Below, one piece after another: positions 43,633 through 63,300 of a stretch of DNA of 64,000 nt. How positions within the stretch are numbered: the stretch's first letter is position 1; each line of letters begins with the position of its first letter. The DNA comes from an uncultured Prevotellaceae bacterium. Lineage in GTDB: Bacteria; Bacteroidota; Bacteroidia; Bacteroidales; Muribaculaceae. The stretch lies in assembly GCA_947169265.1 (NCBI GenBank), contig CAMVPC010000005.1, positions 1 through 64,000 of the forward strand. The letters run 5' to 3'. The translations under genes were made by a program, and so were the position numbers. The notes below the pieces were generated by a model. It was not told the DNA's origin. It did no database searches and saw nothing but the letters and a program-made list of their open reading frames with translations.

Positions 43633-43667
43633 GTCAATCTGGTCATAATTGACCACACAACCTACCG

Positions 43668-43707
43668 ACGACTCGGCAAGAAATACTATCTTGTCGAGTC
43701 GTTTTTT
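43668..43707 (+). terminator. Terminator of mutA-mutB
   Basis: CGACTCG (43669-43675) and CAAGA (43677-43681) pair with 43695-43701 and 43689-43693, with one mismatch between the two stems. Six T follow at 43702-43707. Confidence 0.88.
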
Positions 43708-43817
43708 ATATTAATAATGAAATTTTTAACAACAAAAAGTTGCATATTTCAACACAATAGCATAATTTAGCAACTTTAATTAAGTTACATCGCTTTTTTT
43801 GCTTAATATTTCTTGTT

Positions 43818-46800
43818 ATGATTGATAGGCTGTTATGTAATATCTTGTTTGTTCTATGGACAATCGCATGTGTTGCGACAAGCGCCACAATGGTTCAAGC
43901 GCAAAATGCCGACGAACTACGCGTTTATATCAATCCAGGACACGGCGGATGGGGACCTAATGACCGTCCCATGGCCACAATCCCCCACCCCGCTTTGGCA
44001 TCAACCGGAAGGCCCGATACCTGTGGGTTCTATGAAAGCAACACGAACCTATGGAAGGCCGAGCAAATGCGCAATGCCCTTGTGCGCATGGGGATAAACA
44101 GGGAAAACATCGTACTCTCGCGCGTTAATAACGGGCCATACCCCTACGATGGAGCCGGCAACAACAATGGCCCACAACAACGCAACTTGACCGAAATTTG
44201 CGAAGAAGTGGATGCGGGGAATTTCGATATGTTTTTTTCGATTCATAGCGACGCTGTCACCGAGGGGGGCACTATCAATCGATCGTTATATCTTTATCGA
44301 GGCACCGATGCCGCCAATTCGGTCGCCGGCAGTAAGGCCATGGCCCAGGCATTTTGGCCACGCGCCTCGGTAGCGGCTAATGCAATCGACTACTCATCGA
44401 GTGTCTCAACAACTATTCGCGGCGACATCTCTTTTTACGGAAGCAGTGACACGCGCGCCGGCAGCAACGGCAACAGCTACACCGGATATCTGGGCGTACT
44501 CAAGCATGGCGTGCCGGGGTTCCTGTCCGAAGGATATTGCCACACTTATCAGCCGGCTCGTCACCGCGCACTCAACCGCGACTACTGCGGGCAAGAAGGC
44601 GTGCGCTACGCCCGTGGCGTGTGTGACTACTTTAGCCTAACGCCCGAAAGTACCGGCTACATAATGGGTGCCGTCAAAGACAAGAGCCAAAGCATTTCCA
44701 ACTCACTCTATACCTATCAGAGCGGCACACGAGCCGGCGATGAGTATTTTCCCGTCATGGGCGCAAAAGTATGCCTTTATCGTGGAGAGGAATTAATCGA
44801 TGTCTACACGACCGACAACAACTACAACGGCATTTTCGTCTTCAACAACATTGAGCCAGGCACTTACACACTTAAAACAGTTGCCACCGGATATGCCGAC
44901 CTCACGACAAACGTCACTGTAACGGCAAATGAAACAACTTACCCGCTACTATATGTCACTGCCGGAACTGGCACCAACCCTGCCGATATCACCGATCCAA
45001 AACCCGCTAATGAACCCATCGCCTCGCTCGAGTTGACCAATGACGGAGGTAACACTTATAGCGACATAACTGCCGGCGTCAAGTCGACAGCGCAACATGG
45101 CGACATCACGGTTGTGCTTACCACCGCCAATACGCTCTTTAAGATTGACAACACCTCACATAGTGCCACGCCTGTCAGCACAACAGGTATTGCCACCGAC
45201 AGTTACACGCAGTCGCCGCTAAACGCCATCGCTTTCACGCGCGATGGAACTCTAATAGGAATCAACAAAACCACCTGCAAGTCGCCGGCGAGCGGCACGG
45301 TGCGTGTCTACAAATGGCCATCACTCGACAGTGCCCCCACGCTGTGGCTCACCACACAGAGTTCGGCTGGTTACTCGCAATGTGATGTGGGCCAAACGTT
45401 AACCGTAGCAGGTGACATCAACAACTGCGTTATCACCACGACAGCCACCAACAGCTACCCCACACGCAGTTACAACTCTTATCGCTTCCTGAACCTAAAA
45501 GTAGAGAACGGAAGTTTATCAAAAACCTCCTTTGCCAACAACAACATTACCGGCACCTCATACTTCAACACAGACAACATAGGCACTTCGCTCGACATTC
45601 AGTATTCGACTTGCGGCGACCTTCGCTACTTTATTGACGGCGAAAGCGGAAAGCCTTTTGAATTCCGTATGGTCGACGTTATCGTTACTGGGCAATCAAA
45701 TACAACTTACAACTCAGCCATCGTGAGCCAATGCAATCATAGTGAGGTAATTGACGTGGTCACCCACAATGCTTACTTCAATTACGGCGACCACATTGTC
45801 ATGGCAATGCCCTGCACCACAGCGAGCGGTAGCAACACGGGCATCAAACTGTTCGATATCACACTGGGTCTTGCCAACGCAACACTCATAGCGACCACTT
45901 CCACCTCATTGCCTGCATCAGGCGTCGGCTATACGGCGACCCACCACAGCCTCGAGACCGGCGGCAACCACATCATCTATCTTGTGAAAGACAACCAAGT
46001 AGTCAAATTCATTTTGCCCCAACCTGGCAATGTCAATGAAAACCCACCCGTAGAGGAAATCACCCCGCGGGGTATATTCGCTTATGCGCTTGACCTTGAC
46101 GATAACGGTGACGACACTTATACTTTCCGCTTCACACCCAATGTGGAACCCGTGAGTGGCAACATCGTGCTCTACGACGCCAATCAAGCCGTCGTGGGAC
46201 GTATCACACTCGACAATCTCCATACGGGAGAGAACGAATATACCTTCAACAAAAGCGACTTGCCCGGCGACTTGAGCACCGGCGAGATGACATGGGGCGT
46301 GGAATTGACAGGAACACCGATCACAAGTTTCGCCCAGCTCAATACCGACAATCAATCGGCTTGGGCGTTCAACCGTGCTTGCGCCACAGTCGACAACAGT
46401 CCTGAAAGTGATTATTTCGGCAACATCTATGCCAGCGTGTGGAACGCCGCACCCGCCACCGGAGGCATCAATGCCGGCAATGGTCTCGTTGCTTATAGTC
46501 CCGATTGGACACGTATCAACACAACGGTTTTCAATAATTTTTATAATTATGCGAGCGGTAATTATTCTCAAATAGGTTTGCGCAACAACCGCCAAATCAC
46601 CACCGACTATGTGGGACGTATCTATATGAGCGAATACGGAGATCCCGCGGCCGGTATCTACCTGATTTATCCCGACCGCATCGGTAGCAACAAAAGAGCC
46701 TATCAGTTCTTCACCGGCAGCCAAGCCTCATCGGGCCTGTGGACCGCCAGCGGCGCCAACGTGGGATGCTCCACATCGGCCATCAGCGCCGGTGGCGAGG

Positions 46801-49800
46801 GAAACAATCTCAAACTGTTCTCGCTGCTTGAAGACTTCGAGAAAAACAATGTGGCGGTTTATAATCTTGTGGACGCGACTTCGGGGCAACTGAGTATGAC
46901 ATGGGGAAAAGCGCCGTCGGCAATCCTCAATGTAAAAGGCAGCGGCACCACCAACTGCGGCCAACTTCATGCCGACAGCAAAGGTGGCGTGTGGATCTCG
47001 CATTACAATTCGACCGCCGCGGCCAACTCGCTCATCTATGCGAACAATTCGGGCACAGTGGTCTTCAACAGTAGCACATTGTCGGCGAGCCTTAATGGCA
47101 CGCGTGGCGGCGGTTTCGCCGTGTCGCCCGACAACCGTCGACTGGCTCTCGGTGACCGTGACGGCAACATCCTTCTTTACGATATAACATGGAACGGGTC
47201 AACACCCTCGCTCACGCTGGTTAACAAGTTCACTGATGTGACCGTAAAAGATACCAATTCTCCCACCAACAACACCCAGCGTCAAACCAATGGCCTATAT
47301 CAAATGGCCTTTGACTGGGGTGGCAACCTGGTGATAGGCGGTAATGGGATAGGCATCTATTCGGTACCCACAGCAAACAACACAACCATCACACCCGCCA
47401 AGAAGCGACTCACTGTGAGCCATGCGCCGGCCAGGGTTTACACCGCGGCAAACCTGCGCGTGTGCATTGACCCGGGCCACGGCGGCTACACGAGCAATGA
47501 CCGCAACATGGCCACCATCAACCACGCCCTGGGCGACACGCTGGGTTTCTACGAAAGCAATACGAACCTCGAGAAAGCTTTCGGCGCGCGCACCGCACTC
47601 CTACGCATGGGACTTTCGGCACAAAACGTGGTGCTCACTCGCTACCGCAACAGTTCGGCAAGCGGTGCAAGCGACTTTGACATCCCCATCAGCGATCGCC
47701 GCCAGCTCATCGAGGAGGGCAATTTCGACATGCTGGTTTCGATACACTCCAACGCTTCGGGCGACTTCGATGCCAATGGCAATTTTGAGACACTGGTCGA
47801 AAATGGCGTGTACGGCAACTTCCCGTTATTCCTTTATGCCGGTAAGAGCGGCCGTCCCGCCAATAAGCACAGCGATGAAATGGCCGCGACCATCTGGCGC
47901 CGCCACTGGCTCACCACTGACATCGACCCCGTTTCCCGACCCGAAATCACCATCGACGATCCCTATATCGTGGGCGACGTGGACTATTATGACCCCTGGA
48001 TTAATAATGGCGCCACCAGTGGACCCGAGTGGCGTTACAGCAACACGACCGGAGTGAGCACCTACGGTTACCTGGGCGTCCTTCGCCACAGTGTGCCAGG
48101 CCTGCTCATTGAAGGTTTCTGCCACCAGTACCATCCCGCCACGCAACGCGCGCTCAACCATGACTATTGCCGCATGATGGGCATCAAAATCGCACGCGGC
48201 GTCATGGACTTCTATAACCTTGCGGGAGAAAATACGGGCTATATCATGGGAACCGTAAAGGACCGCAGCCGTTCTCTCGAACACAACCTGTATAAGTATA
48301 GACCCAATACGGTCGATGCCTACTACCCCATTAACGGCGCTACAGTAACACTCTACAAGGAGGGATCGATTATCGCTACTTACACCACCGACAATGAGTA
48401 TAACGGCATATTCGCTTTCAACAATCTCGAGCCCGGAACCTACAAGCTGGTCACAAGTTATGCCGGTTACGACAACGATGAACAAATGGTAGAGGTGACG
48501 GCCAACGAAACCACTTATCCGCTCATATATCTCGATGCTGCCACAGCGCCACAAGGCATCTTCGCTTACAATTTGGCAAGCAATGCTAATAGTGATGGCA
48601 GCTACGACTTCTCATTCACCGCCAACACGACATCGACCGCTGCGAGCCTCATCTTCTACGACAGCATGACGGGAGCACAGGTGGGCGCACCTGTAGCCAT
48701 CAACAATGTAAAAAAAGGCATTCACAACACTATCACCTTATCCCAATCGCAAATTCCGGGCATTACCGGCCAACGCCTTAACTGGTCGGTTAGCCTCACC
48801 GGAAAGCCCATCACAGCAATGGCCTCACTATCAACACTCAACGTCGGCAATGCCGTCCGTCTTGCACCCACCGTCGACAATAGTCCCGAGAGCGACCATT
48901 TCGGTAGAATTTATGCAAGTGGATTCAACGCGTCGGGAAGTAACGACAACGGCATTTTCGCATTTAATCAAGATTTTTCGCAAGTGAATGTTGTCGCTTA
49001 TCGTGGCGACCTCACATTCTCCAATAACTATCGTGTGGCCACCGACGCCAACGGCACGATTTACCTCAGCGACTGGGGCGATGCCACTAGTGGTGTGTAC
49101 GTCGCCAATTCCGATAACCTCACGGGAAGTTTCACGCAATTCCTCACAGGTACCCGCAAGACCGTCAATCCCAATAAGGGTCTCATCACTAACGATGGGA
49201 ATAGCGTGGGCGGCTCAACAGCTACCATCAACATCGCTAATGGAAAGATGTATACTTCAATCGAAGATATTGACGGGCATGAGAATGACGTGGCAGTTTA
49301 CGACATCACCGATGCCAACGGCAACATAGCCACCTCGTGGAGCACTTCACCTTCCTTCATCGAGACAAGCGACAAGGTGACTGTGGTTAATGGTGACTAC
49401 GATATTGCCGGCGACAACAATGGCGGAATTTGGGTGGCGCAGAAATCCACATCAAATACCGCCACGACACCCACACTGCTTTACTACGATTCAAGTGGCA
49501 ATTTACTATACACTTCGGCCGGGAACAGCGACATCAACGGATCGCTCAATGGTGCGATTGCCATCAACGCGCAAAACACGTTGCTCGCCATCCATGACGC
49601 AAGCCAAACAATTAAGGTTTTTGATATCGTGTGGAATAGCGGCTCGCCCACACTCTCGTTACGCGCCTCGCTGTCGAGCGGCATTGCTTCTTCCACGTCG
49701 GGCAACTCGTCTTATTACACCACGGCAGGAGCCGTCTACCAAATGGCCTTCGATTGGGGCGACAATCTTGTGGCCGGCGGCGAGAAGTTAGGTCTTTACG

Positions 49801-50795
49801 CCATTCCACTTGATGATAACACGCATATCACTCCCGCTAAAAAAGCGTTGATTGTGGTTAAGGAAGGTGAGCCGGTCGAAGCCACGCTGGCACAAATTCT
49901 CGGCAGCGAAAATTATCCCGTGGGCGGCACCTACAGCTTTGCTGATGACTATCTCACCTGCGTGTATGTGTCACATGACCGCCTCACGCTTTACCTCAAG
50001 GACCACGGCAACGTGAGTGTGGAAAAACACGAGAATGACGGACAGCGAATCGACTATCTTTACAACGTGGGCCTTGACGCCACCGACCAAAGCAACTGGG
50101 TGGCCGTGCACCTGCCTGAACCAGTCGACTTTGCCGACCAATGGGAAAACCATCGAGTCACCGGCATTACCGGCACGCTGACGGGCAAACTGAATCCCGA
50201 AATCACCGCAATCGCGACACCGGTGGCCGGTGTGAGCGACGTGTACGACAAGAATACCTATATCGTGGCCAATTTCAATCCCGAAAACTGGCTCCACGAA
50301 AGATACTTCTTCGTCAATCCCAAGGCGATGGAAATAGCCGATATCAATTGGGCACAATGGAGCGCGAGCGATAACGCGTTTATTGTGCCTCCAAAAGATG
50401 GCACTATCAATCAAGCCGGAATCGAGGGTGTCGTCGCCGCTTCATCCGCAATGATTTATGTCGATGATGAGCCGGTCAGCTTGACACCCGCGCAAATCTA
50501 CGAGGACGGAAAGATGTACCGCTTTGCGGCGCTCATCAAGAAAAACACTGCTCCTTCGGGCGCCGCGCGTCGCGCGATGGCGTCACCGTCATTCACCCTC
50601 TACCCGCTCGCATACAGCCAAAACAACATCCTTACCGGGGTCGGTGACACGCCGGAAGCGCACCGTGAAGTTACGACCACCCACCTCTTTGACCTGCAAG
50701 GCCGGCAACTGCGACAAGCACCCGAGCACGGTGTTTATATTGAAGTGAACACCTACAACGACGGAACGAGTGAGAGCCGTAAAATCAAGCGATAA
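43818..50795 (+). CDS. Giant secreted protein with two N-acetylmuramoyl-L-alanine amidase domains
   Basis: A 2325-residue exported protein. Signal peptide about 1-28 (ending MVQAQ). Amidase_3 domain 1, about 35-275: zinc ligands His42 (NPGHGG), Glu73 (FYESNTN), His143 (SIHSDA), catalytic Glu238 (FLSEGYCH). Then a CarboxypepD_reg-like domain (about 285-385), a beta-rich propeller-like stretch (about 400-745), and a module of Ig-like (GIFAYALDLD) plus propeller (VDNSPESDYFG near 857 to TPAKK near 1195). Amidase domain 2, about 1210-1470, also keeps all ligands: His1221, Glu1246, His1310, Glu1432. A second regulatory, Ig-like and propeller series runs to about 2000. The end, HLFDLQGRQLRQ then GVYIEV, resembles a type IX secretion C-terminal domain. 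Amidases of this type cut the lactyl bond of peptidoglycan. It is the first gene of a three-gene operon. Confidence 0.85.
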   Translation: MIDRLLCNILFVLWTIACVATSATMVQAQNADELRVYINPGHGGWGPNDRPMATIPHPALASTGRPDTCGFYESNTNLWKAEQMRNALVRMGINRENIVLSRVNNGPYPYDGAGNNNGPQQRNLTEICEEVDAGNFDMFFSIHSDAVTEGGTINRSLYLYRGTDAANSVAGSKAMAQAFWPRASVAANAIDYSSSVSTTIRGDISFYGSSDTRAGSNGNSYTGYLGVLKHGVPGFLSEGYCHTYQPARHRALNRDYCGQEGVRYARGVCDYFSLTPESTGYIMGAVKDKSQSISNSLYTYQSGTRAGDEYFPVMGAKVCLYRGEELIDVYTTDNNYNGIFVFNNIEPGTYTLKTVATGYADLTTNVTVTANETTYPLLYVTAGTGTNPADITDPKPANEPIASLELTNDGGNTYSDITAGVKSTAQHGDITVVLTTANTLFKIDNTSHSATPVSTTGIATDSYTQSPLNAIAFTRDGTLIGINKTTCKSPASGTVRVYKWPSLDSAPTLWLTTQSSAGYSQCDVGQTLTVAGDINNCVITTTATNSYPTRSYNSYRFLNLKVENGSLSKTSFANNNITGTSYFNTDNIGTSLDIQYSTCGDLRYFIDGESGKPFEFRMVDVIVTGQSNTTYNSAIVSQCNHSEVIDVVTHNAYFNYGDHIVMAMPCTTASGSNTGIKLFDITLGLANATLIATTSTSLPASGVGYTATHHSLETGGNHIIYLVKDNQVVKFILPQPGNVNENPPVEEITPRGIFAYALDLDDNGDDTYTFRFTPNVEPVSGNIVLYDANQAVVGRITLDNLHTGENEYTFNKSDLPGDLSTGEMTWGVELTGTPITSFAQLNTDNQSAWAFNRACATVDNSPESDYFGNIYASVWNAAPATGGINAGNGLVAYSPDWTRINTTVFNNFYNYASGNYSQIGLRNNRQITTDYVGRIYMSEYGDPAAGIYLIYPDRIGSNKRAYQFFTGSQASSGLWTASGANVGCSTSAISAGGEGNNLKLFSLLEDFEKNNVAVYNLVDATSGQLSMTWGKAPSAILNVKGSGTTNCGQLHADSKGGVWISHYNSTAAANSLIYANNSGTVVFNSSTLSASLNGTRGGGFAVSPDNRRLALGDRDGNILLYDITWNGSTPSLTLVNKFTDVTVKDTNSPTNNTQRQTNGLYQMAFDWGGNLVIGGNGIGIYSVPTANNTTITPAKKRLTVSHAPARVYTAANLRVCIDPGHGGYTSNDRNMATINHALGDTLGFYESNTNLEKAFGARTALLRMGLSAQNVVLTRYRNSSASGASDFDIPISDRRQLIEEGNFDMLVSIHSNASGDFDANGNFETLVENGVYGNFPLFLYAGKSGRPANKHSDEMAATIWRRHWLTTDIDPVSRPEITIDDPYIVGDVDYYDPWINNGATSGPEWRYSNTTGVSTYGYLGVLRHSVPGLLIEGFCHQYHPATQRALNHDYCRMMGIKIARGVMDFYNLAGENTGYIMGTVKDRSRSLEHNLYKYRPNTVDAYYPINGATVTLYKEGSIIATYTTDNEYNGIFAFNNLEPGTYKLVTSYAGYDNDEQMVEVTANETTYPLIYLDAATAPQGIFAYNLASNANSDGSYDFSFTANTTSTAASLIFYDSMTGAQVGAPVAINNVKKGIHNTITLSQSQIPGITGQRLNWSVSLTGKPITAMASLSTLNVGNAVRLAPTVDNSPESDHFGRIYASGFNASGSNDNGIFAFNQDFSQVNVVAYRGDLTFSNNYRVATDANGTIYLSDWGDATSGVYVANSDNLTGSFTQFLTGTRKTVNPNKGLITNDGNSVGGSTATINIANGKMYTSIEDIDGHENDVAVYDITDANGNIATSWSTSPSFIETSDKVTVVNGDYDIAGDNNGGIWVAQKSTSNTATTPTLLYYDSSGNLLYTSAGNSDINGSLNGAIAINAQNTLLAIHDASQTIKVFDIVWNSGSPTLSLRASLSSGIASSTSGNSSYYTTAGAVYQMAFDWGDNLVAGGEKLGLYAIPLDDNTHITPAKKALIVVKEGEPVEATLAQILGSENYPVGGTYSFADDYLTCVYVSHDRLTLYLKDHGNVSVEKHENDGQRIDYLYNVGLDATDQSNWVAVHLPEPVDFADQWENHRVTGITGTLTGKLNPEITAIATPVAGVSDVYDKNTYIVANFNPENWLHERYFFVNPKAMEIADINWAQWSASDNAFIVPPKDGTINQAGIEGVVAASSAMIYVDDEPVSLTPAQIYEDGKMYRFAALIKKNTAPSGAARRAMASPSFTLYPLAYSQNNILTGVGDTPEAHREVTTTHLFDLQGRQLRQAPEHGVYIEVNTYNDGTSESRKIKR

Positions 50796-50834
50796 AAAAA
50801 CAATAAAAAACAATCACATAAAAACTCAGGTAAA

Positions 50835-51746
50835 ATGAAAAAAATCTTATCGATAGTCATCCTCATGGGATTCGTCCCCATGACAATCGCTCAAGTGGTT
50901 CAAGTCAAGTCAATTGAGCGTCTCGACATCCCCTTAAGCGAAGAAACCGTCGAGGTGGTCGCCATTGCTCCACAAGGCGATTACGTGTTACTCTCGTCGC
51001 CATCGCACCGCGGACTTGTGAAATTTGATCTTACCACCAAGCGGCAGACAGTGCTCACCGACGCCGAAGGGGCTGGATACGGAACACAAATCACTGGCGA
51101 CGGCAAGAACGTGGTTTTCCGCGAGAAAACCATAAACGACGAACGCCTCACCTTCACGGCTGTCAAGCAGATAGACGTGGCCACAAAGCAAACAAGCACC
51201 CTGGTGGCTCCCACCCGCGACTTGCAGGCGGTAGCCGTAGAAGGGTCAACGGCCACGACAATAACCGGTAAGCGCATGAACACGCGCGCCCTACGCGGCA
51301 CAGCATCGGCCGTTCGCCCTATCATTTCGAGTGAGGACCTGCATCTCTATCTCACTATCAATGGCGAAACCACGCTCTTCGCGCCCAACGGAACCGATGT
51401 GAACTACATTTGGGCAAGCCTCTCGCCCGACACCCGGCGCGTGCTATACTATGTGAGCGGGATGGGATGCTTCGTGTGTGGTATCGACGGAACCGGCTTG
51501 ATTGAACTGGGCACGTTACGCGCGCCGCAGTGGCTCACCAACGATGTGGTGGTGGGTATGCGCGATGAGGATAATGGAGTGTATGTTACCTCATCAACCC
51601 TTATCGCCAAAACACTCGCGGGTGTGGAACAAGTACTCACCGGCAGCGACATGATTGCCATGTATCCCCATGTTAACGCCGATGGCGATAAAATCGCGTT
51701 TTCCACGCCTCAGGGCGACAGTTATCTCATTCAGCTGCAAAAATAA
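50835..51746 (+). CDS. Small secreted beta-propeller protein (TolB/PD40-like)
   Basis: A 303-residue exported protein with a signal peptide (about 1-19, ending MTIAQ). The mature part is built of repeated four-strand units such as VEVVAIAPQGDYVLLSS, GTQITGDGKNVVF, WASLSPDTRRVLYYVSG and YPHVNADGDKIAFST, the pattern of TolB/PD40-type propeller blades. There is no catalytic motif or sorting tail. It sits 39 bp after the giant amidase gene and 8 bp before the next one, so it is a member of the same operon and may bind one of the amidases or a cell-wall ligand. Confidence 0.8.
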   Translation: MKKILSIVILMGFVPMTIAQVVQVKSIERLDIPLSEETVEVVAIAPQGDYVLLSSPSHRGLVKFDLTTKRQTVLTDAEGAGYGTQITGDGKNVVFREKTINDERLTFTAVKQIDVATKQTSTLVAPTRDLQAVAVEGSTATTITGKRMNTRALRGTASAVRPIISSEDLHLYLTINGETTLFAPNGTDVNYIWASLSPDTRRVLYYVSGMGCFVCGIDGTGLIELGTLRAPQWLTNDVVVGMRDEDNGVYVTSSTLIAKTLAGVEQVLTGSDMIAMYPHVNADGDKIAFSTPQGDSYLIQLQK

Positions 51747-51754
51747 CAGGTGTC

Positions 51755-54700
51755 ATGAAATGGTCATTCTTCATTTTTTTGTCAATCGCCCTTGCCCTGG
51801 GCAGATTATGTGGCTATGCCGCCGACAAAACGGTGACAACGGCCAAGATTTATCTCAATCCGGGCCACGGAAGCTGGGGACCCAACGACCGTCCTATGGC
51901 GACAATCCCCTACCCCTTTCTCGCTTCGACGGGAAGGCCCGACACTTGCGGTTTCTACGAGAGTAACACCAACCTGTGGAAAGTGCTTCGCATGCGGCAG
52001 GCACTCCTTGACCTTGGCATGAAGTCAAGCAACATCAAGTTGTCGCGCTGGGCCAATGGCCCTTACCCCTATGTGGCCGGCGCGTCAAACGCCTATAAAT
52101 ACAATCGCAACTTGAGTGAGATTTGTGAGGAAGTGGACGCGTGGGGTGCCGACATGTTCTTCTCGGTGCATAGCGATGCCGCCTCCGACGGTTCTACGGC
52201 CAATCGCTCACTATATATTTATCGCGGCACCGATGCCTCGAACTATGTGGCCGGCAGTAAGGCCATGGCGCAAGCGCTGTGGACGCGTGCCTACGTGGGC
52301 ACCAATGGCATCGACTATGCCTCGAGCACATCGACCAACATTCGTGGCGACATCACATTCTACGGCAGCAGTAGCACACGCACAGGCAGCAATGGCAATA
52401 AATACACCGGTTACTTGGGCGTGCTCAAGCATGGCATTCCCGGCTTTCTCGCCGAGGGATATTGCCACACCTATCAGCCCGCGCGCCACCGCGCGCTCAA
52501 CAGCGACTATTGCGGTCAAGAGGGCGTGCGCTATTCGCGCGGCGTTGCCGACTATTTCGGTTGGACACGCGACACCAAGGGGTACATCATGGGATTTGTC
52601 AAGGATAAGAGCAAAAGTGTGAACCACAGCCTCTATACCTACAAGAGCGGCACACGGGCCGGCGATGAGTACTGGCCGGTGATGGGCGCCACGGTGAGCC
52701 TTTACCAAGACGGAACGCTCGTCGATACTTACACCACCGACAACAACTACAACGGCGTCTTTGTGTTTGAACGTCTCGACCCCGGCAACTACACGCTTAT
52801 CGTGAGGGCAAGCGGATATAACGACCACACTGAGAACGTCACTGTAACCGCCAATGAAACCACTTATCCCCGCATCTATGTCACGCCGGGGTCAGGTACT
52901 GACCCCGAACCCCAACCTACCGAGAAAATCAAGGGCATCTTTGCCTATAATCTAAACTTGACAAAAGGCGAAAACAGCTCGTACACATTCTCATTCAACG
53001 CCAATAGCGACGCACTGAGCGGACGCATCATTTTCACCGATTCGATAAGCGGCGAGACAATCGGCTCAATACTTCTCGACGAGGTGAAAGAGGGTCCCAA
53101 CTCCTTTGCGATCACTAATGACAGGCTACCCGACAATGCGGGGCAAGAACAAGTGCTCAACTGGAGTGTGGAGCTAACCGGAAAACCCATCACCGCGATT
53201 ACCCGACTTAATGACACGGGTAGCGCGTTTAATTACACGCGCGCCAGCGTTACCGTCGACAACAGTCCCGAGAGCAACTACTTCGGCAGTGTGTATGTCA
53301 ACGACCTCAAGACGCGCAACGCCAGCTCGTCGAATGCCGGCAACCGCGACAATGGCATTTACCGCTACAACCCGTTGTGGCAACGCGAGAACACGACACC
53401 TTACACCGGCAACATGGCGTGGGACAACAACTTCCGCATCACCACCGACTATCGCGGCACGCTCTACATCCCCGACTTCGGCGACAACCACAGCGGCGTC
53501 TATATCGCACACCCCGACCACTTGGGCGACACTTGGCAGAACCTCTTTGCCGGCAGCCGCACAGTGAGCGGCGATCTCGCCGGCCTTATCACCAACAACG
53601 GCGTGAACACCGGCAGTTCGTCGCCCAGCGCCTATGTGTGTGGCAGTGGCGCCGACAGCAAACTATATGTTGCCCTTGAGGATATGGACAACCGTGTGTA
53701 TTGCTACGACCTGGGCAGCCAGATGGACGCCGACGGCAATCTGCCCACCAAATGGTACACCGAACCAGAGCTTGTCCACACCAAAACCGACCTGAAGTAC
53801 ACCAATAAAAACGTTATCGCGCAAGCCGATGGTGCCGTGTGGATAGCCGAAAATCTCTACATCACATCAGGAAGCCTTGAGAACCTCGCCACGCAACCCG
53901 CGCTGCGTTACATCACCCCGCGTCACGACGACTACTGGAGCTATGCCACCAACTCAAACACACCGGTGACCAATCTCAACGGCTGCGCGGGAGGCGGATT
54001 CGTCATCACGCCCGACAACAAGCAAATCATCATTGTGGATGGCGATGGCGTGCTTCAGTTCTTCAATGTGAACGACAACAACCGCGACAAACCATTGCTC
54101 ACATGGCAACGGTCGTTCACCGCCGATGCCCGCGATAGCGGCTGCACCACTGTGGGCGGCGGACGCGTGCCCAACGGTGTGTACCAAATGGCTTTCGACT
54201 GGGGCGGTAACCTCTATGTTGCCGGCGGCAGCTTGGGCATCTATTCCATTCCCACTACCGACAATCGCCACGTTACGCCCGCCAAGAAAGCGATGACGCT
54301 GACCAAAGGCGAGGTGATTATTCCGGAACCCGAACCCTACGTTGTCAAGAAAGACATCGACACTTATGCCGACAACGACAATCTTAGCCTAACAAGCGAC
54401 TGGGTGCGCTCGGTCAAGGAAGAATATGACAACATCGTCTTTGACGAAAGCGGCATTCGCAACCGCGGCTTCGCTGTGAGCGGCGACAAAGTGTTTGTTG
54501 CGGCACGCAGCGAGAATGCCACCGATGCCGATTTGTTCCTCCTCACCCTTGACCGGTACACGGGCGAGACACTCGGCCGGCTTGACTTGAGTCACGACGC
54601 GAACGTGGAACTATACGGCTGTAACGACGTGCTGATTGACGCGGCAGGAAACATGGTGATTTCCAACCTCACTACCGACCTCGCCACGGCACCGCTTCAA

Positions 54701-56629
54701 TTGTTCAAAGTCGACACTATCACCGGCAACGTGCAGCGAGTGGCACAGCTCTCCACAACCATCAGCGGTATTCGCCTGGACCATTGCAATATCGTGGGCG
54801 ATGTAACGAGCGGCAACTTCACCGTGATGGCGGCACAAGCCAGCGGTAAACGATTGCTGTCATGGGCCGTGACCGACGGACAAGCCGCCGACCCCGTCGT
54901 CGTGGAAGCGCAGACATTCTACCCCGCCACGGCAACCCACTTTGGCATCGCGCCACGCATTTATCCGGTTGATGTCACCCATGCCTACGTAACCGGTTCC
55001 ACAGTTCATCCCACACTCTACAACCTCACCGACGGCTCGATAATCGACAGTTTCGGGAATAACGAAGAAATCAAACCGAACGGACTCAACGCCAACGGTC
55101 TCACCACGTTCTCCATGGGGCAACGCCGGTTCATGGTCTACCCCAGTGAGGACTATCGTAACAGCGAGGGCAACAAGTTCACCTTGGCCGTGAGCGAGAG
55201 CGGTGAAGTGAAGTTTACCCACTTAAAGAAAGTATTCGAGTTCCCCACGCGCGGACTGGGTGCCGTTCATAGTCAAACGTGGGGAGCACCTGTCAGCGCC
55301 GAGGTGAGCGACGATGGGCACAGCGCACAAATCGTCGTGTATGTTCCCGGTGAGGGCCTCGCGTCTTACACACTGGGCGACCTTACCGAACCCGTTGAAG
55401 AATATGTCATTAAGAAGGATATCGACACTTACGCCGACACGTTGGGACTGAGCCTCTCCAGCAACTGGGTGCGATCGGTGAAGAGCGAATATGACAACAT
55501 TTCGTTCAAGGGCGACGGTATCCTCAACCGCGGCTTTGCCATGAGCGGCGATGTGGTCTACGTGAGCGCGCGCGACGCCAACGCCACCGATGCCGACATC
55601 AGTCTGCTGCGCTTCGACCGCGCCACCGGGCGCACACTCACCCCGCTCCCCCTGGCCGACGCCGCGCGTGTGCCCTACTACGCCTGCAACGATGTGCTCA
55701 CCGACGCCGCCGGTAACGTGCTGGTGGCTAACCTCACACTCAACATTGCCATCACACCGCTGCAGTTGCATGTCGTTGACACGATTACGGGAGGTGTGAC
55801 TAAAGTGGCCGAACTCATCAAAACGAACGCCGAGGGCGCGCGCATCGACCATTGCGGCGTGCTGGGCGACGTGACCACCGGCAACTTCACCGTGATGGCG
55901 GCGCAAGCCAGCGGCAGACAGATTATTTCGTGGACCATCGAGGATGGTGTGGTAAAAAAATCGAATGTTGTCGAAGTGGTGGCACTCTATCCTGCGACAG
56001 CCGCCAACTTCGGTATCGCGCCGCGCATCTTCCCAGTAAGCGACTCCACTGCCTACGTGAGCGGCTCCAATACCCACTTGACACTCTACCACGTCAATAC
56101 GGGCCAAATTCTCGACAGCTTCGAGCAAAACGCGGCCATCACGCCTGTAGGAATACAAGCTAACGGTTTCGCGGCCTTCACGCTGGGTGGCAAAAGCTTC
56201 ATGCTCTATCCCGATGAGGATTACCGCGGTGCCGAGGGCAACAAGTTCATGCTGGCCATGAGTGACGACAATTCGCTGCAATTCGCCCACCTCTCGCCCG
56301 TTTACGAGTTCCCGAAGCGCGGCTTGGGCGCAGTTCATAGCCAAACGTGGGGCGCGCTGATTGCCACCGAGTCTCATCAGGCCGACCGCAGTGCCGACAT
56401 CGTGGTTTACGTTCCCGGCGAAGGCCTCGCGTCTTACTCGCTCGCGCTACCCAAAGTCACGCTACGTGGTGACGTAAACGGCGACGGAGTGGTGAGCGGA
56501 GCCGACGTAACAGCGCTCTACGGACTTTTGCTCGACGGCAAAAGCGTGGATGGAGAGCCGGACGTGAGCGGCGACGGCATCGTTAGCGGCGCCGACGTAA
56601 CCGCCCTCTACAACCTCCTCCTCAAATAG
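51755..56629 (+). CDS. Large secreted amidase with duplicated module and dockerin-like tail
   Basis: A 1624-residue exported protein. Signal peptide about 1-23. Amidase_3 domain about 30-275 with His38 (NPGHGS), Glu69, His139 (SVHSDA) and Glu234 (FLAEGYCH); it is far closer to domain 1 of the upstream giant protein than that protein's two domains are to each other. A CarboxypepD_reg-like domain (about 280-385), an Ig-like segment (GIFAYNLNLT) and a propeller (VDNSPESNYFG near 499 to TPAKK near 845) follow. Two tandem copies of a module of about 350 residues (863-1212 and 1218-1565, each starting KKDIDTYAD) come next, possibly DUF4623-like propellers. The last 55 residues are two dockerin-type calcium loops (GDVNGDGVVSGADVTALY), ending YNLLLK. 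It follows the propeller gene by 8 bp. Confidence 0.87.
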   Translation: MKWSFFIFLSIALALGRLCGYAADKTVTTAKIYLNPGHGSWGPNDRPMATIPYPFLASTGRPDTCGFYESNTNLWKVLRMRQALLDLGMKSSNIKLSRWANGPYPYVAGASNAYKYNRNLSEICEEVDAWGADMFFSVHSDAASDGSTANRSLYIYRGTDASNYVAGSKAMAQALWTRAYVGTNGIDYASSTSTNIRGDITFYGSSSTRTGSNGNKYTGYLGVLKHGIPGFLAEGYCHTYQPARHRALNSDYCGQEGVRYSRGVADYFGWTRDTKGYIMGFVKDKSKSVNHSLYTYKSGTRAGDEYWPVMGATVSLYQDGTLVDTYTTDNNYNGVFVFERLDPGNYTLIVRASGYNDHTENVTVTANETTYPRIYVTPGSGTDPEPQPTEKIKGIFAYNLNLTKGENSSYTFSFNANSDALSGRIIFTDSISGETIGSILLDEVKEGPNSFAITNDRLPDNAGQEQVLNWSVELTGKPITAITRLNDTGSAFNYTRASVTVDNSPESNYFGSVYVNDLKTRNASSSNAGNRDNGIYRYNPLWQRENTTPYTGNMAWDNNFRITTDYRGTLYIPDFGDNHSGVYIAHPDHLGDTWQNLFAGSRTVSGDLAGLITNNGVNTGSSSPSAYVCGSGADSKLYVALEDMDNRVYCYDLGSQMDADGNLPTKWYTEPELVHTKTDLKYTNKNVIAQADGAVWIAENLYITSGSLENLATQPALRYITPRHDDYWSYATNSNTPVTNLNGCAGGGFVITPDNKQIIIVDGDGVLQFFNVNDNNRDKPLLTWQRSFTADARDSGCTTVGGGRVPNGVYQMAFDWGGNLYVAGGSLGIYSIPTTDNRHVTPAKKAMTLTKGEVIIPEPEPYVVKKDIDTYADNDNLSLTSDWVRSVKEEYDNIVFDESGIRNRGFAVSGDKVFVAARSENATDADLFLLTLDRYTGETLGRLDLSHDANVELYGCNDVLIDAAGNMVISNLTTDLATAPLQLFKVDTITGNVQRVAQLSTTISGIRLDHCNIVGDVTSGNFTVMAAQASGKRLLSWAVTDGQAADPVVVEAQTFYPATATHFGIAPRIYPVDVTHAYVTGSTVHPTLYNLTDGSIIDSFGNNEEIKPNGLNANGLTTFSMGQRRFMVYPSEDYRNSEGNKFTLAVSESGEVKFTHLKKVFEFPTRGLGAVHSQTWGAPVSAEVSDDGHSAQIVVYVPGEGLASYTLGDLTEPVEEYVIKKDIDTYADTLGLSLSSNWVRSVKSEYDNISFKGDGILNRGFAMSGDVVYVSARDANATDADISLLRFDRATGRTLTPLPLADAARVPYYACNDVLTDAAGNVLVANLTLNIAITPLQLHVVDTITGGVTKVAELIKTNAEGARIDHCGVLGDVTTGNFTVMAAQASGRQIISWTIEDGVVKKSNVVEVVALYPATAANFGIAPRIFPVSDSTAYVSGSNTHLTLYHVNTGQILDSFEQNAAITPVGIQANGFAAFTLGGKSFMLYPDEDYRGAEGNKFMLAMSDDNSLQFAHLSPVYEFPKRGLGAVHSQTWGALIATESHQADRSADIVVYVPGEGLASYSLALPKVTLRGDVNGDGVVSGADVTALYGLLLDGKSVDGEPDVSGDGIVSGADVTALYNLLLK
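54341..56456 (+). repeat. Tandem duplication inside the second amidase gene
   Basis: Two direct copies of about 1.05 kb, beginning near 54341 and 55405, encode modules of about 350 residues. Shared landmarks are KKDIDTYAD, WVRSVK, NRGFA, NFTVMAAQASG, ATHFGIAPR/ANFGIAPR, RGLGAVHSQTWGA and VVYVPGEGLASY. Several short stretches are still identical at DNA level, so the duplication is fairly recent or kept uniform. Confidence 0.85.
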
Positions 56630-56710: not shown

Positions 56711-56748
56711 CCCCGCGACCATTCCAGCTGCGGGGTGTTTTTTGTTTT
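56711..56748 (+). terminator. Terminator of the amidase operon
   Basis: CCCCGC (56711-56716) pairs with GCGGGG (56730-56735) and is followed by TGTTTTTTGTTTT. It lies about 80 bp after the stop codon. Confidence 0.8.
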
Positions 56749-58079: not shown

Positions 58080-60266
58080 ATGAAAACAAAACTACTACAC
58101 TCGATTTTCCTGGCGGTGGCGCTAATGGTGGCGCTGCCCGCCAGCGCCTACGACTTCATGGTCGATGGCATAGCCTATCAAAAAACCGGCAATACGGCAG
58201 TAGAAGTGACGTACGGAGGTAATTACACTGGTGATATCTCGATACCACCCTCGGTTGACTTAGATGGAACTACTTATATCGTTACCTCCATCGACAGTTA
58301 TGCCTTCTATGGTTGCAGCGGGTTGACAAGCGTGACCATCCCCAACTCCGTCACCACCATCGGCGGCAGTGCGTTCCAGAGTTGCAGTGGCTTGACGAGC
58401 GTGACTATCGGCAACTCCGTCACCTCCATCGGCATCAGTGCGTTCAACGGTTGCAGTGGATTGACGAGCGTGACCATCCCCAACTCCGTCACCACCATCG
58501 GCGGCAGTGCGTTCCAGAGTTGCAGTGGCTTGACGAGCATAAAAGTGGAAACGGGAAATACTGTTTATGATTCTCGCGAAGACTGTAATGCTATTATTGA
58601 GACCGCAAGCAAAACACTAATTGCGGGATGTAAGAATACCACCATCCCCAACTCCGTCACCTCCATCGGCAACTATGCGTTCTACTACTGCATCGGCTTG
58701 ACGAGCGTGACCATCCCCAACTCCGTTACCTCCATCGGCAACGGCGCGTTCGGTGGTTGCAGCGGCTTGACGAGCATGACCATCGGCAACTCGGTAACCT
58801 CCATCGGCGATGGGGCGTTCTCTGGTTGCAGCGGGTTGACGAGTGTTACCATCGGCAACTCGGTCACCACCATCGGCGGCAGTGCGTTCAACGGTTGCAC
58901 CGGCTTGACGAGCGTGACCATCCCCAACTCCGTTACCTCCATCGGCAACGGCGCGTTCGGTGGTTGCAGCGGCTTGACGAGCATGACCATCGGCAACTCG
59001 GTAACCTCCATCGGCAACGGCGCGTTCGGTGGTTGCACCGGCTTGACGAGCATAAAAGTGGAAGCGGGAAATACTGTTTATGATTCTCGCGAAGACTGTA
59101 ATGCTATTATTGAGACCGCAAGCAATACACTAATTGCGGGATGTATGAATACCACCATCCCCAACTCCGTCACCTCCATCGGCGGCGGTGCGTTCGGTGG
59201 TTGCACCGGCTTGACGAGCGTTACTATCGGCAACTCGGTAACCTCCATCGGCGATGGGGCGTTCTCTGGTTGCAGCGGGTTGACGAGTGTTACCATCGGC
59301 AACTCGGTCACCACCATCGGCGGCAGTGCGTTCAACGGTTGCACCGGCTTGACGAGCGTGACCATCCCCAACTCGGTTACCACCGTCGGCGGCAGTGCGT
59401 TCCGCGCTTGCAGCGGCTTAGCGAGCGTGACCATCGGCAACTCGGTAACCTCCATCGGCAGCTATGCGTTCTCTGGTTGCAGCGGGTTGACGAGCGTTAT
59501 TATCGGCAACTCGGTCACCTCCATCGGCGGCAGTGCGTTCAACGGTTGCACCGGCTTGACGAGCGTGACCATCCCCAACTCAGTTACCTCCATCGGCAAC
59601 GGCGCGTTCGGTGGTTGCACCGGCTTGACGAGCGTAACCATCCCCAACTCGGTCACCTCCATCGGCAGCAGTGCGTTTTATAACTGCAGCGGCTTGACGA
59701 GCATAAAAGTGGAAGCGGGAAATACTGTTTATGATTCTCGCGATGACTGCAATGCTATTATTGAGACCGCAAGCAATACACTAATTGCGGGATGTATGAA
59801 TACCACCATCCCCAACTCCGTCACCTCCATCGGCGGCAGTGCGTTCCGCGCTTGCAGCGGCTTGACGAGCGTGACCATCGGCAACTCGGTAACCTCCATC
59901 GGCAGCTATGCGTTCAATGGTTGCACCGGCCTGACGAATATCTATAGCCATATTGTCAATCCGAATAATGTATTAGGAATAAATGTGTTCGGGAGTGTAG
60001 ATAAGTCGAATTGCCAATTATATGTCCCAAGAGTTTCTCTTGATTTATACAAAGAGGCTGATCAGTGGAAGGAGTTTGAGCATATTGTGCCATTCGATGA
60101 GCCGGGCGACGTGAACGGCGACGAGGTGGTGAGCGGTGCCGACGTGACGGCGCTCTACAACGTGCTGCTCGACGGGGCCGAGGCCGGCGGTAGCGCCGAC
60201 GTGAACGGCGACGGCGTGGTTAGCGGCGCCGACGTGACCGCCCTCTACAACCTCCTCCTTAATTAG
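58080..60266 (+). CDS. Secreted BspA-type leucine-rich repeat protein with a two-loop dockerin-like tail
   Basis: A 728-residue exported protein. Signal peptide about 1-23 (ending PASAYDF). Residues 75-620 consist of more than 20 near-identical LRR_5 units of about 23 residues, such as LTSVTIPNSVTSIGNGAF. Three insertions of a non-LRR block (IKVEAGNTVYDSREDCNAII) break the array. The C-terminus (about 676-728) has two dockerin-type calcium loops, the first with GDE in place of GDG, ending YNLLLN. The N-terminus matches the smaller paralogue at 7595. Such repeats in Bacteroidetes surface proteins are linked to adhesion; the ligand is unknown. It begins 12 bp after the DUF2971 gene and may share its transcript. 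Confidence 0.9.
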   Translation: MKTKLLHSIFLAVALMVALPASAYDFMVDGIAYQKTGNTAVEVTYGGNYTGDISIPPSVDLDGTTYIVTSIDSYAFYGCSGLTSVTIPNSVTTIGGSAFQSCSGLTSVTIGNSVTSIGISAFNGCSGLTSVTIPNSVTTIGGSAFQSCSGLTSIKVETGNTVYDSREDCNAIIETASKTLIAGCKNTTIPNSVTSIGNYAFYYCIGLTSVTIPNSVTSIGNGAFGGCSGLTSMTIGNSVTSIGDGAFSGCSGLTSVTIGNSVTTIGGSAFNGCTGLTSVTIPNSVTSIGNGAFGGCSGLTSMTIGNSVTSIGNGAFGGCTGLTSIKVEAGNTVYDSREDCNAIIETASNTLIAGCMNTTIPNSVTSIGGGAFGGCTGLTSVTIGNSVTSIGDGAFSGCSGLTSVTIGNSVTTIGGSAFNGCTGLTSVTIPNSVTTVGGSAFRACSGLASVTIGNSVTSIGSYAFSGCSGLTSVIIGNSVTSIGGSAFNGCTGLTSVTIPNSVTSIGNGAFGGCTGLTSVTIPNSVTSIGSSAFYNCSGLTSIKVEAGNTVYDSRDDCNAIIETASNTLIAGCMNTTIPNSVTSIGGSAFRACSGLTSVTIGNSVTSIGSYAFNGCTGLTNIYSHIVNPNNVLGINVFGSVDKSNCQLYVPRVSLDLYKEADQWKEFEHIVPFDEPGDVNGDEVVSGADVTALYNVLLDGAEAGGSADVNGDGVVSGADVTALYNLLLN
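58313..59937 (+). repeat. DNA-level LRR repeat array
   Basis: Tandem units of 69 bp with very low divergence (recurring TTGACGAGCGTGACCATC and ACCTCCATCGGC) and a larger block of about 120 bp (ATAAAAGTGGAA, then ACTGTTTATGATTCTCGCGA) repeated near 58538, 59050 and 59700. Because of the regular composition other frames stay open too. Copy number could change by recombination or slippage in whole units without breaking the frame. Confidence 0.92.
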
Positions 60267-60365: not shown

Positions 60366-63300
60366 TTATTGCAGTAGCAGGTTGTATAGGGCGGTCACGT
60401 CGGCTCCGCTCACGAGGCCGTCGCCACTCACATCGGCATTGCCGTTCACCGGCTTGTCGTCAAGCAAAAGTCCGTAAAGCGCTGTCACGTCGGCGCCGCT
60501 CACCACTCCGTCGCCGTTCACGTCACCCACAACGCCGTCATCTTCGCCAATTATCACTTGGGTTTTCACGATTTCTCCATTAAGGGTGACAGCTTTGAGG
60601 TCGGTGTCGTAGACAGCACCCGCCGGCTTGCTGATGAAGTAACTTTCATTCACGCCGTCCACGCCCTTGATATCGGCAAAACCGATAACGGAGCCGTCAC
60701 GCGGACCGGTGGCCTTGACGACACTCTCGTCACTTACCCCGAGCGAATTAGTGCCAACGGATGACATAATACCCGCATAGTTACCTTTAGCGTCAAGGGT
60801 AAGCGGGCCTGTGATGTTGAATCTCCAGGCCACCTCGATACCGGATTCGCTTGCCGAGATGTTGAGTGAGGCTTTTTCATCGGCACGGAGAGTGAGTCCG
60901 TTGCCATCGTACAGACCTGTATCGAATCCGTTAATTGAGTTCCTTCCTTTGAAAGTGATAATAGCCGGATAAACCACCCCGCTATGGCCATTGAATAATC
61001 CTGTGGAGCCACCACCACTTCCGGGTTTTGCGATGGCCACATTGTCGAAAGTGAGGTGAAAGTACAAATTCATCATGGTTTCCTGGACTATTTTATCGAC
61101 CGTGATTGAGCCACTCACGCCCTCGGCGGTGAATTTCTTGTCCTCGTCGAGCCTGCGGCCGGCGAGGTAGAAAGAGCTTAGTTGGCCTCTACTACTGTAA
61201 AGGACCTCATCGACATACTCATCATCGTCAAACTCGACAGCCGCATACACACCGGAAACTTTTTCCACAGCGGTCTTATTCCACACCGATTCACCATCGG
61301 GAATATAGAAATAGGTACCGGCCTTGCTTACCGGCGGCTCGGTCTTGGCGTTATGCAAGAGGCAAGTGAGGTAAGGATTGCTTATTGCGGGCGCGGTGCC
61401 GTCGGGTTCTTTCATAGTGAGGAAACCGTAAAATCCCGACGTTCCCTTGATTGCAAAGGGCAATCCGGCCGGAACCGTGACCGGATATTGAGTATTATCA
61501 CGGAGACTGCGCAAACTCAGGCTACCATTAATGCCGAAAAGGCCGGAACCGCGCACCCCATGAATCCGTCGCGTGACGGTATAGATATCCAGAGCTTGCG
61601 AGCCGGCGTAAGGCTCAAGTTGCACATCGCTATCGAAAGCGTGAAGCGCGAATTCTGATGTAACCACCGCGCGGAAGATGTCGCCGTCATAGGACGACCA
61701 CCTTGTTTGGATGGAGTCGTACAACTGATAGGGAACATATACCGTGATGTCGTCGCCGGTGGACCAAAATGCGTTGAACACCGTGCCGCGTGGCTTGCTG
61801 TTCATCAGCAAGAAGTTCTTCACACCGCTATCCTTAAAGGCGTTGCTGCCCACATAGGTCACCGTGGCGGGAATGGGGAACACGCCTTGTGGACAACCCG
61901 ACGAACCTTCTTGAGTGAGCATGCGGCAGTTGCGGAACGCGTCTTCGTGGATATAGGTCAACTTCGGGCTCATGGCGTGGTTCTTGAGCGCGTAACAGTT
62001 ATAGAAAGCGCTGCGACCAAAGTAGGTTATTTTATTCATGCCCTTTACTTCCTCGAGGTGTGTACATCCCGAAAAAGCATAGTTCTCGAGACGTGTCACC
62101 TTGGAGTCGGCCATGTTCACGCTCACCAGCGTTGAATCGCTGTAGAAGGCATTGGCACCGATGGCAGTCACTTTCGATGGAAGAGTGATGCTTTCGAGTG
62201 AATAGCACATTTCAAAGGCTTGCTCACCGATTTCGGTGATTTGCGGCGGCAAGGTCACCGAAGTCATGCTCCAATTCATCGACAACTGGCGATAACCAAT
62301 CTTGGTGATACCGGTGAAGTATTGCAGCTCATCGAACGAGGTAATGGCGTAACGGCTCTTGGCGCCACTGGAATAGCCTTCCATGCCGAACATGCCGCCC
62401 AGGTCGGTAACGGCCGCGGCTTCGCTGTAACTAATCTGCTCGTCGCCGCTGGTATCAAAACCACTGCGCACGCACAAGTCGCGCACCGCGTCGCAAGCGA
62501 ATTCAATCACCTCGCTGTCGCGCGCCTTGAGATTCTTGAAATTTTTCCACGCGATGGCGCGGGAATAGTTCTCAAAAGCCTCTGCGGGCACATACACCTT
62601 GGCCTGGTCGTAAATAGTTGAAGTGAAAGCGGCGGTCGCCGTTGTGGGTGGCGTGACGGCCATGCACACGATATAATCGAGAGCAGTGAGGACAAACGCG
62701 TTGGCGCTGATGGTTTTGAGGTTCTCGCCCATTGTGACCCTGGAGAGGAGGGTGCAGTTAGCAAAAGCTCCAGTACCGATACTCGTCACCGTGGATGGAA
62801 GTTGCATTTCACGCAGACCAGCGCCGGCAAATGCACTCACACCGATAGTGAGCAGTCCCTCGGGCAGGTGCACAGCCGAGAGGTTGCCACGGCTGGCGCT
62901 GAAGGCATTGTCCTCGATGGAGGTGACGGCATAGTCGACACCCTCGTGGGTAACTGTGGCCGGTATGGTGACGATACCCGTGTAGATGCCGCCGGGCTTG
63001 CGCGTCACGCCCACGGTTCCATCGCTGTTAATGACGTAAGCGATGCCGTCTTCCTCAAAGTCGAAATTGAGCCCGTCGATATTTTCAAACTTGCTCCACT
63101 CGTTGGCCGAGCCGTAGGTCTCCATCGCTGAGCGCGGCACCTTGAGCGTGGCGTTGCTGTAGGTGTCACCGGAAAACATGTCATAAGATAATGAACCACT
63201 ATTGTAGGTGGGAGGTGTGCTCGCTTTCGATGTGATTGCCATCACGGGAGAGTTATTGAAAGCTCTATCATTAATTTCGGTGAGACCTCTTCCCAAAGTC

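Follow-up and report, generated by a model that had tools for sequence, protein, structure and literature searches.

Introduction

Peptidoglycan amidases that work with a partner protein are a known kind of system. The housekeeping septal enzymes AmiA, AmiB, and AmiC are proteins of a few hundred residues, and they are not known to be sorted by the type IX secretion system (T9SS). In Escherichia coli, these enzymes are activated by the partners EnvC, NlpD, and ActS, as described in an excerpt of PMC12440217. In Clostridioides difficile, the Amidase_3 enzyme CwlD has a dedicated and unrelated partner, GerS, which is reported to activate CwlD by stabilizing zinc. Here, we analyze a 64,000-nucleotide stretch of DNA from an uncultured Prevotellaceae bacterium (GenBank assembly GCA_947169265.1, contig CAMVPC010000005.1, positions 1 to 64,000), which we call the window and in which two large amidase genes, A (43818 to 50795) and C (51755 to 56629), flank a gene for a small beta-propeller protein, B (50835 to 51746), all on the plus strand. 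We propose a two-component peptidoglycan amidase in which a zinc amidase, exported in many loci, is bound and controlled by B, a dedicated propeller that is probably periplasmic; we regard the chances that this proposal is correct as about even.

The described systems differ from this pair. GerS is a lipoprotein, CwlD is a spore enzyme, and the activators of AmiA, AmiB, and AmiC are LytM-domain proteins, whereas B is a propeller; GerS activates its enzyme, whereas the direction in which B would act is something that we only infer. TolB of the Tol-Pal system is a periplasmic propeller with one further domain, and 53 of 61 B proteins match its propeller model (TIGR02800) at an E value of ≤0.1. 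B, however, is a propeller alone, and the window's B scores only 12.3 bits against the TolB equivalog cutoff of 428 (NF003124). Within the literature that we searched (word matching in the open subset of PubMed Central), we found no description of a B-amidase pair, and the partner family, its fusion to the enzyme, and the connection with type IX secretion all appear to be new.

B genes adjoin amidase genes in several Bacteroidales families

A search of 200 related genomes returned matches to B in 110 of them at an E value of 1e-3. The stretches that we annotated comprised 80 (L038 to L117) handpicked from the rows of this search, the best 79 of 339 named loci, the window, and two further stretches; they constitute a nonrandom sample, mostly from one genus or family, and were annotated with profiles built for this analysis. 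After duplicate B cores were dropped (173 to 151), 143 of the 151 nonredundant B genes were found to adjoin, or to be fused with, an amidase of the subfamily present in the window. The amidase lies downstream of B in 116 cases, upstream in 14, on both sides in 11, and in the same frame in 2. Five of the remaining B genes sit at contig ends and three have no adjacent amidase: at L161 the amidase is one gene further, beyond a GHL10 glycosidase, and at L048 and L126 the neighbor is the rear part of a dockerin-bearing propeller gene that runs off the contig, leaving the amidase out of sight. Once those at contig ends are set aside, 146 B genes remain, and none of them is a clear orphan, although two have their amidase off the contig. 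A one-base overlap between the stop codon of B and the amidase start codon occurs in 48 of 127 cases.

Presence and absence across genomes tell the same story. At thresholds of 1e-3 for B and 1e-20 for the amidase, the two agree in 197 of the 200 genomes, 108 of which hold both and 89 neither; the disagreeing genomes are G130 and G192, with B only, and G084, with the amidase only, and in G130 the B gene lies next to a match to the amidase profile. Because 101 of the genomes belong to a single genus, the counts outside that genus matter, and there 9 of 99 genomes hold both, 2 hold B only, and 88 hold neither. Relatives are labeled Muribaculaceae and "Candidatus Sodaliphilus," and the cultured ones fall in Hoylesella and Barnesiella. 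The adjacency of B and amidase is more than chance, since it recurs in several Bacteroidales families, and the comparative genomics supports well the assignment of B as a dedicated amidase partner.

The neighborhood is thus conserved in related genomes, as the initial annotation of the window had asked of it, yet the conserved unit is not the one it had named. That annotation described two amidases around a propeller; the unit that recurs is B plus one amidase. An A-type gene, B, and a C-type gene occur in this order in five stretches only (the window, L039, L042, L045, and L213), all from the window's genus, with a cut copy at L038, and the two-amidase form of A is confined to the window and L039. 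The window's own genome has three clear B genes and four amidase genes in three loci, namely, the window operon and loci on contigs C4 (L052) and C1 (L201). Five amidase domains were counted in this genome and four listed, the fifth being taken as the one on C1, and a fourth, weak match to B (contig C18, E value of 4.7e-5, in a 1,081-residue frame) was left uncounted. In a class-wide search of 395 genomes, B was found at an E value of 1e-40 in at least one, the genome of the window itself; this is a lower bound because at most five candidates were scored per genome.

A natural fusion of B and amidase

At locus L079, one 655-residue open frame holds a single signal peptide, B, a linker, the amidase, a regulatory domain, and a lysine-rich tail. 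This fusion is uninterrupted in 37 of the 101 genomes of the genus, and 7 more have a stop inside the matched stretch. A second signal peptide is absent from the linker in all 12 loci inspected; behind the fusion, all 12 have a separate B, and in 10 of them the start of a further amidase lies beyond it. Because the fusion holds only B, the amidase, and the regulatory domain, its architecture suggests that B and amidase can work in one chain without a further propeller or the X400 domain that is common to many B-linked amidases. The fused pair probably shares the periplasm, since the fusion has neither a dockerin nor, by eye, a sorting domain. Another candidate, L058 (2955 to 7499), was rejected as a fusion: the signal peptide of the amidase is still inside the frame and the end of B is missing, which probably reflects a frameshift-like event. 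It is one of the two cases tallied as fused among the 151 B genes.

The fusion bears on two explanations that do without any control of the enzyme by B. Under the first, B and amidase are merely cotranscribed within a wall degradation pathway and never touch. Genes for GHL10 and GH20 enzymes also join the neighborhood (12 and 14 of 151 loci, respectively), but those are few loci, whereas the B-amidase link holds in practically all of them; together with the existence of the fusion, this makes mere operon habit highly improbable. Under the second, B is a targeting subunit, either exported with the amidase or acting in the periplasm as a propeller that binds the wall, and it delivers the enzyme to its substrate without altering enzyme activity. 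The fusion, which permanently joins B to the amidase, fits regulation, but it fits targeting too, and the large amidase proteins also bear propellers, which the initial annotation took as putative target-binding parts. That these proteins already have propellers of their own can equally be held against a targeting role, as can the failure of B to match the T9SS sorting models that part of the enzymes match. We consider targeting a possibility that is somewhat doubtful; keeper, activator, and targeting subunit are inseparable on the present genomic data.

The initial annotation had also raised the prospect of antagonism, and a last explanation takes the amidase as a secreted toxin and B as its immunity protein. 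The pair does resemble the amidase effector and immunity pairs of type VI secretion. Polymorphic toxins proposed to use the T9SS are known in Bacteroidetes, according to an excerpt of PMC7073777. Immunity proteins of polymorphic toxins are diverse in the same excerpt, whereas B is one well-conserved family, with a mean column identity of 51% (alignment A3). Its fusion to the enzyme and the lack of clear orphan copies point the same way; antagonism found no positive support, and an antibacterial weapon is very unlikely.

B is a propeller of one conserved family

B is a 303-residue protein with a signal peptide and a single beta-propeller, without a C-terminal sorting domain. Its profile is matched by TolB structures; the fold matches listed for it include WDR5-type and a few other eukaryotic propellers, and the absence of TolB among the 50 matches listed is no evidence either way. 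The idea that B is a copy of the X400 domain was rejected, since a profile comparison gave no homology (probability, 1%). No match to B was found on plasmids, so a mobile-element reading was rejected as well. We observed a B-amidase pair in an unannotated record from human feces that is labeled as a bacteriophage (L215, MT836839.1, 145 to 3474) and is probably bacterial DNA in a virome.

Likely export of part of the enzymes and probable retention of B

We examined the C termini of those B-linked amidases that have their stop codon within the contig and exceed 500 residues (147 reduced to 131). A dockerin ends 46 of the 131. Among the other 85, which align with a loose common consensus, TIGR04183, the T9SS type A sorting domain, is matched by 28 (best E value, 1.1e-14) and PF18962 by 25, both at an E value of ≤0.1. 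With the same library and threshold, T9SS models were matched by 0 of 61 B proteins. B is probably periplasmic, because its signal peptide is not accompanied by a sorting domain such as some of the enzymes have; for this reason, we favor a periplasmic regulator. The window's own genome encodes T9SS components (SprA_N, E value of 8.9e-188; two PorU-type sortases over their cutoff) and contains 11 TIGR04183 places, the best of which is the C4 amidase. A good share of the relatives bear T9SS sorting domains, and those that do are likely to act outside the cell or on its surface; the initial annotation's description of A and C as extracellular enzymes gains from these relatives, and A and C themselves, which match no sorting model, may be exported too.

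A further explanation is that the system remodels the cell's own wall in the periplasm, with B as an activator in the manner of EnvC and NlpD and with the large size of the proteins serving as scaffolding. The fusion and the short amidases, which by eye have no sorting domain, are compatible with this view, and CwlD with GerS is reported to be a self-directed pair. DigH, moreover, is specific for denuded glycans and acts in cell separation, as an excerpt of PMC12288456 reports. Against it stand the T9SS sorting domains of 28 among 85 amidases and the TIGR04183 matches in 18 of 23 GHL10 and NAGPA cluster proteins near the loci, and the joint absence of B and amidase from most sampled related genera is unlike a core division function. 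We judge self-directed remodeling to be improbable.

Our proposal, by comparison, would have the zinc amidase remove stem peptides from glycan strands, with B binding the amidase part and controlling it. B would stay in the periplasm, where it would hold or mature the amidase and prevent it from attacking the wall of the producing cell before it is exported. In the more specific form of this proposal, B acts as a keeper: translationally coupled with the amidase, it would hold the enzyme inactive or zinc free and be left behind at type IX export, and the lineage with the fusion would have a permanently controlled periplasmic amidase. We advance this form tentatively, as a possibility with the odds against it.

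Several observations weigh against the proposal, in which catalysis, physical binding, the direction of regulation, the location of B, and the target wall are all matters that we infer. Of 10 amidase places in other genomes that were fetched to test for B, 9 have no B in the stretch and 1 (L213) does; six of these nine amidases are short (376 to 421 residues; amidase plus regulatory domain) and three are large, and some lie near contig ends. The rule therefore runs one way: B implies an amidase, and an amidase does not imply B. TIGR04183 goes unmatched by 57 of the 85 nondockerin C termini and by those of the window's own A and C, of which the former matches no sorting model and the latter is a dockerin. 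Setting the presence of the T9SS against that of B proved uninformative, because SprA is found in 190 of the 200 genomes. The fusion, with its lack of a dockerin or recognizable sorting domain, probably leaves both partners in the periplasm, an arrangement that a pure pre-export keeper does not need. Finally, distances among B proteins follow those of X400 (partial r of 0.49) more closely than those of the amidase domain (0.34; n = 82); this is not decisive, because the L079 fusion shows no X400.

Dockerins are the other common C terminus. That of gene C (56468 to 56623), absent from the initial annotation, is a type I dockerin scoring 28.2 bits against a cutoff of 22.9. With the own genome at a completeness of about 96%, no cohesin (PF00963) was matched in it. 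Dockerins are described as consistently lacking from Bacteroidetes genomes in an excerpt of PMC5831590. We counted 111 dockerin type I places in the own genome, including three in the window (56468 to 56623, 60102 to 60260, and 60372 to 60527). In the B-linked amidases that carry one, the C-terminal dockerin occupies the place of the T9SS sorting domain in others, and in 72 of 79 dockerin frames of the stretches examined, amidases included, it ends within 12 residues of the C terminus. In these bacteria, the dockerin may thus take over as a tail for sorting or anchoring.

The amidases and the layout of the window operon

The coordinates bear out three codirectional genes with gaps of 39 bp (A to B) and 8 bp (B to C), and by eye each protein has a signal-peptide-like N terminus, as had been annotated. 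Gene A encodes 2,325 residues. Behind its signal peptide lie a first Amidase_3-type domain (43911 to 44669; residues 32 to 284), a regulatory domain, X400 (45063 to 46010; residues 416 to 731), which has no Pfam family and no detected homology to B, and an Ig-like and propeller module (46068 to 47417; residues 751 to 1200) for which the fold evidence comes solely from its homologue in gene C. These are followed by a second amidase domain (47451 to 48251; residues 1212 to 1478), which the initial annotation did not mention, a regulatory domain, a second Ig-like and propeller module (48552 to 49859; residues 1579 to 2014), and a C-terminal region whose last 100 residues (50493 to 50792) are like the consensus of the other C termini and alone match no T9SS sorting model. 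Gene C encodes 1,624 residues: a signal peptide, an amidase domain (51842 to 52594; residues 30 to 280), a regulatory domain, an Ig-like and NHL-type propeller module (52928 to 54301; residues 392 to 849), two DUF5018-like repeats (54338 to 56446; residues 862 to 1209 and 1217 to 1564) that match Pfam below the cutoff, and the dockerin. The claim that A and C share one module order holds for the carboxypeptidase-regulatory and propeller modules, which are similarly ordered; "Ig-like" describes a strand pattern only.

Amidase_3 had been reported in both outer genes with all zinc and catalytic residues, and both the domain and the residues are there, although only gene A exceeds the Pfam cutoff for PF01520 (56.1 bits against 27, compared with 20.5 for gene C). 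The zinc ligands His, Glu, and His and the catalytic Glu are complete in 146 of 148 domains, all three in the window included (H38, E69, H139, and E234 in gene C). The C4 paralogue goes unreported by PF01520 and yet matches an alignment of this amidase subfamily at an E value of 5.8e-111; from this and from the score of gene C, we take this subfamily to be divergent. Its profile matches two solved sequences, one of which is CwlD (7rag; E value of 4e-5), and CwlD is the amidase that appears in the fold listing, where the domain of gene C matches it; the CwlD equivalog cutoff (TIGR02883) is not reached (21.9 bits against 221.55). Amidase_3 enzymes are defined by cleavage of the MurNAc-L-Ala bond, and removal of the stem peptides from glycan strands is the predicted reaction here. 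The short amidases without B (L206 to L211), which show no sorting domain by eye, are perhaps of a periplasmic ancestral type.

The operon was said to be closed by one terminator, which the sequence does not support. The sole plus-strand candidate 3' of gene C is a weak stem of 6 pairs (56720 to 56737), and the 14 terminator-like sites in the region are no excess over the shuffle mean of 16.8. The best terminator-like stem (43667 to 43703, plus strand) lies upstream, between the operon and the preceding genes, read by eye as methylmalonyl-CoA mutase. Between this stem and gene A is an AT-rich leader (43704 to 43817) with a loose by-eye match to the Bacteroidetes promoter pattern, and downstream of the operon lies a BspA-type leucine-rich-repeat protein with a C-terminal dockerin (58080 to 60266).

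Neighboring enzymes and the breakdown of peptidoglycan

DigH belongs to the GHL10 family, and denuded glycans are the products of amidases. GHL10 genes, identified by Pfam at L161 (204 bits) and elsewhere by a profile derived from the L161 protein, neighbor B-amidase loci under several family labels, and unlike DigH, most GHL10 and NAGPA proteins here bear the sorting domain. An NAGPA phosphodiester glycosidase is found in 4 of 151 loci by a one-sequence profile, BLAST clustering places one in 8 loci of which two are duplicates, and the GH20 hexosaminidase was identified by Pfam on one member. The window operon itself has no GHL10, NAGPA, or GH20 gene beside it. A GH20-type gene stands directly beside amidase genes with two propeller modules in ten loci (L053, L083, L107, L124, L148, L160, L162, L166, L178, and L187), where by eye its protein ends without a sorting domain. 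Muropeptide scavenging had been put forward together with antagonism; the neighbors in some loci fit peptidoglycan scavenging or wall degradation, so that this half of the suggestion is compatible with the gene content.

Implications

If B is indeed a keeper, then as far as is known no propeller was previously described as an amidase regulator, and no T9SS enzyme as having a cargo-specific keeper in the periplasm. The B family supplies a candidate amidase partner from gut and oral Bacteroidales, and the natural fusions offer a ready single-chain version for experiments. The system can be tested in strains that have such a pair, namely, Hoylesella buccalis ATCC 35310, H. loescheii DSM 19665, and Barnesiella sp. 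An22. The pair raises the question of how peptidoglycan hydrolases could pass through type IX export without self-digestion, and it suggests that bacteria of the rumen and gut may break down peptidoglycan at their surface.
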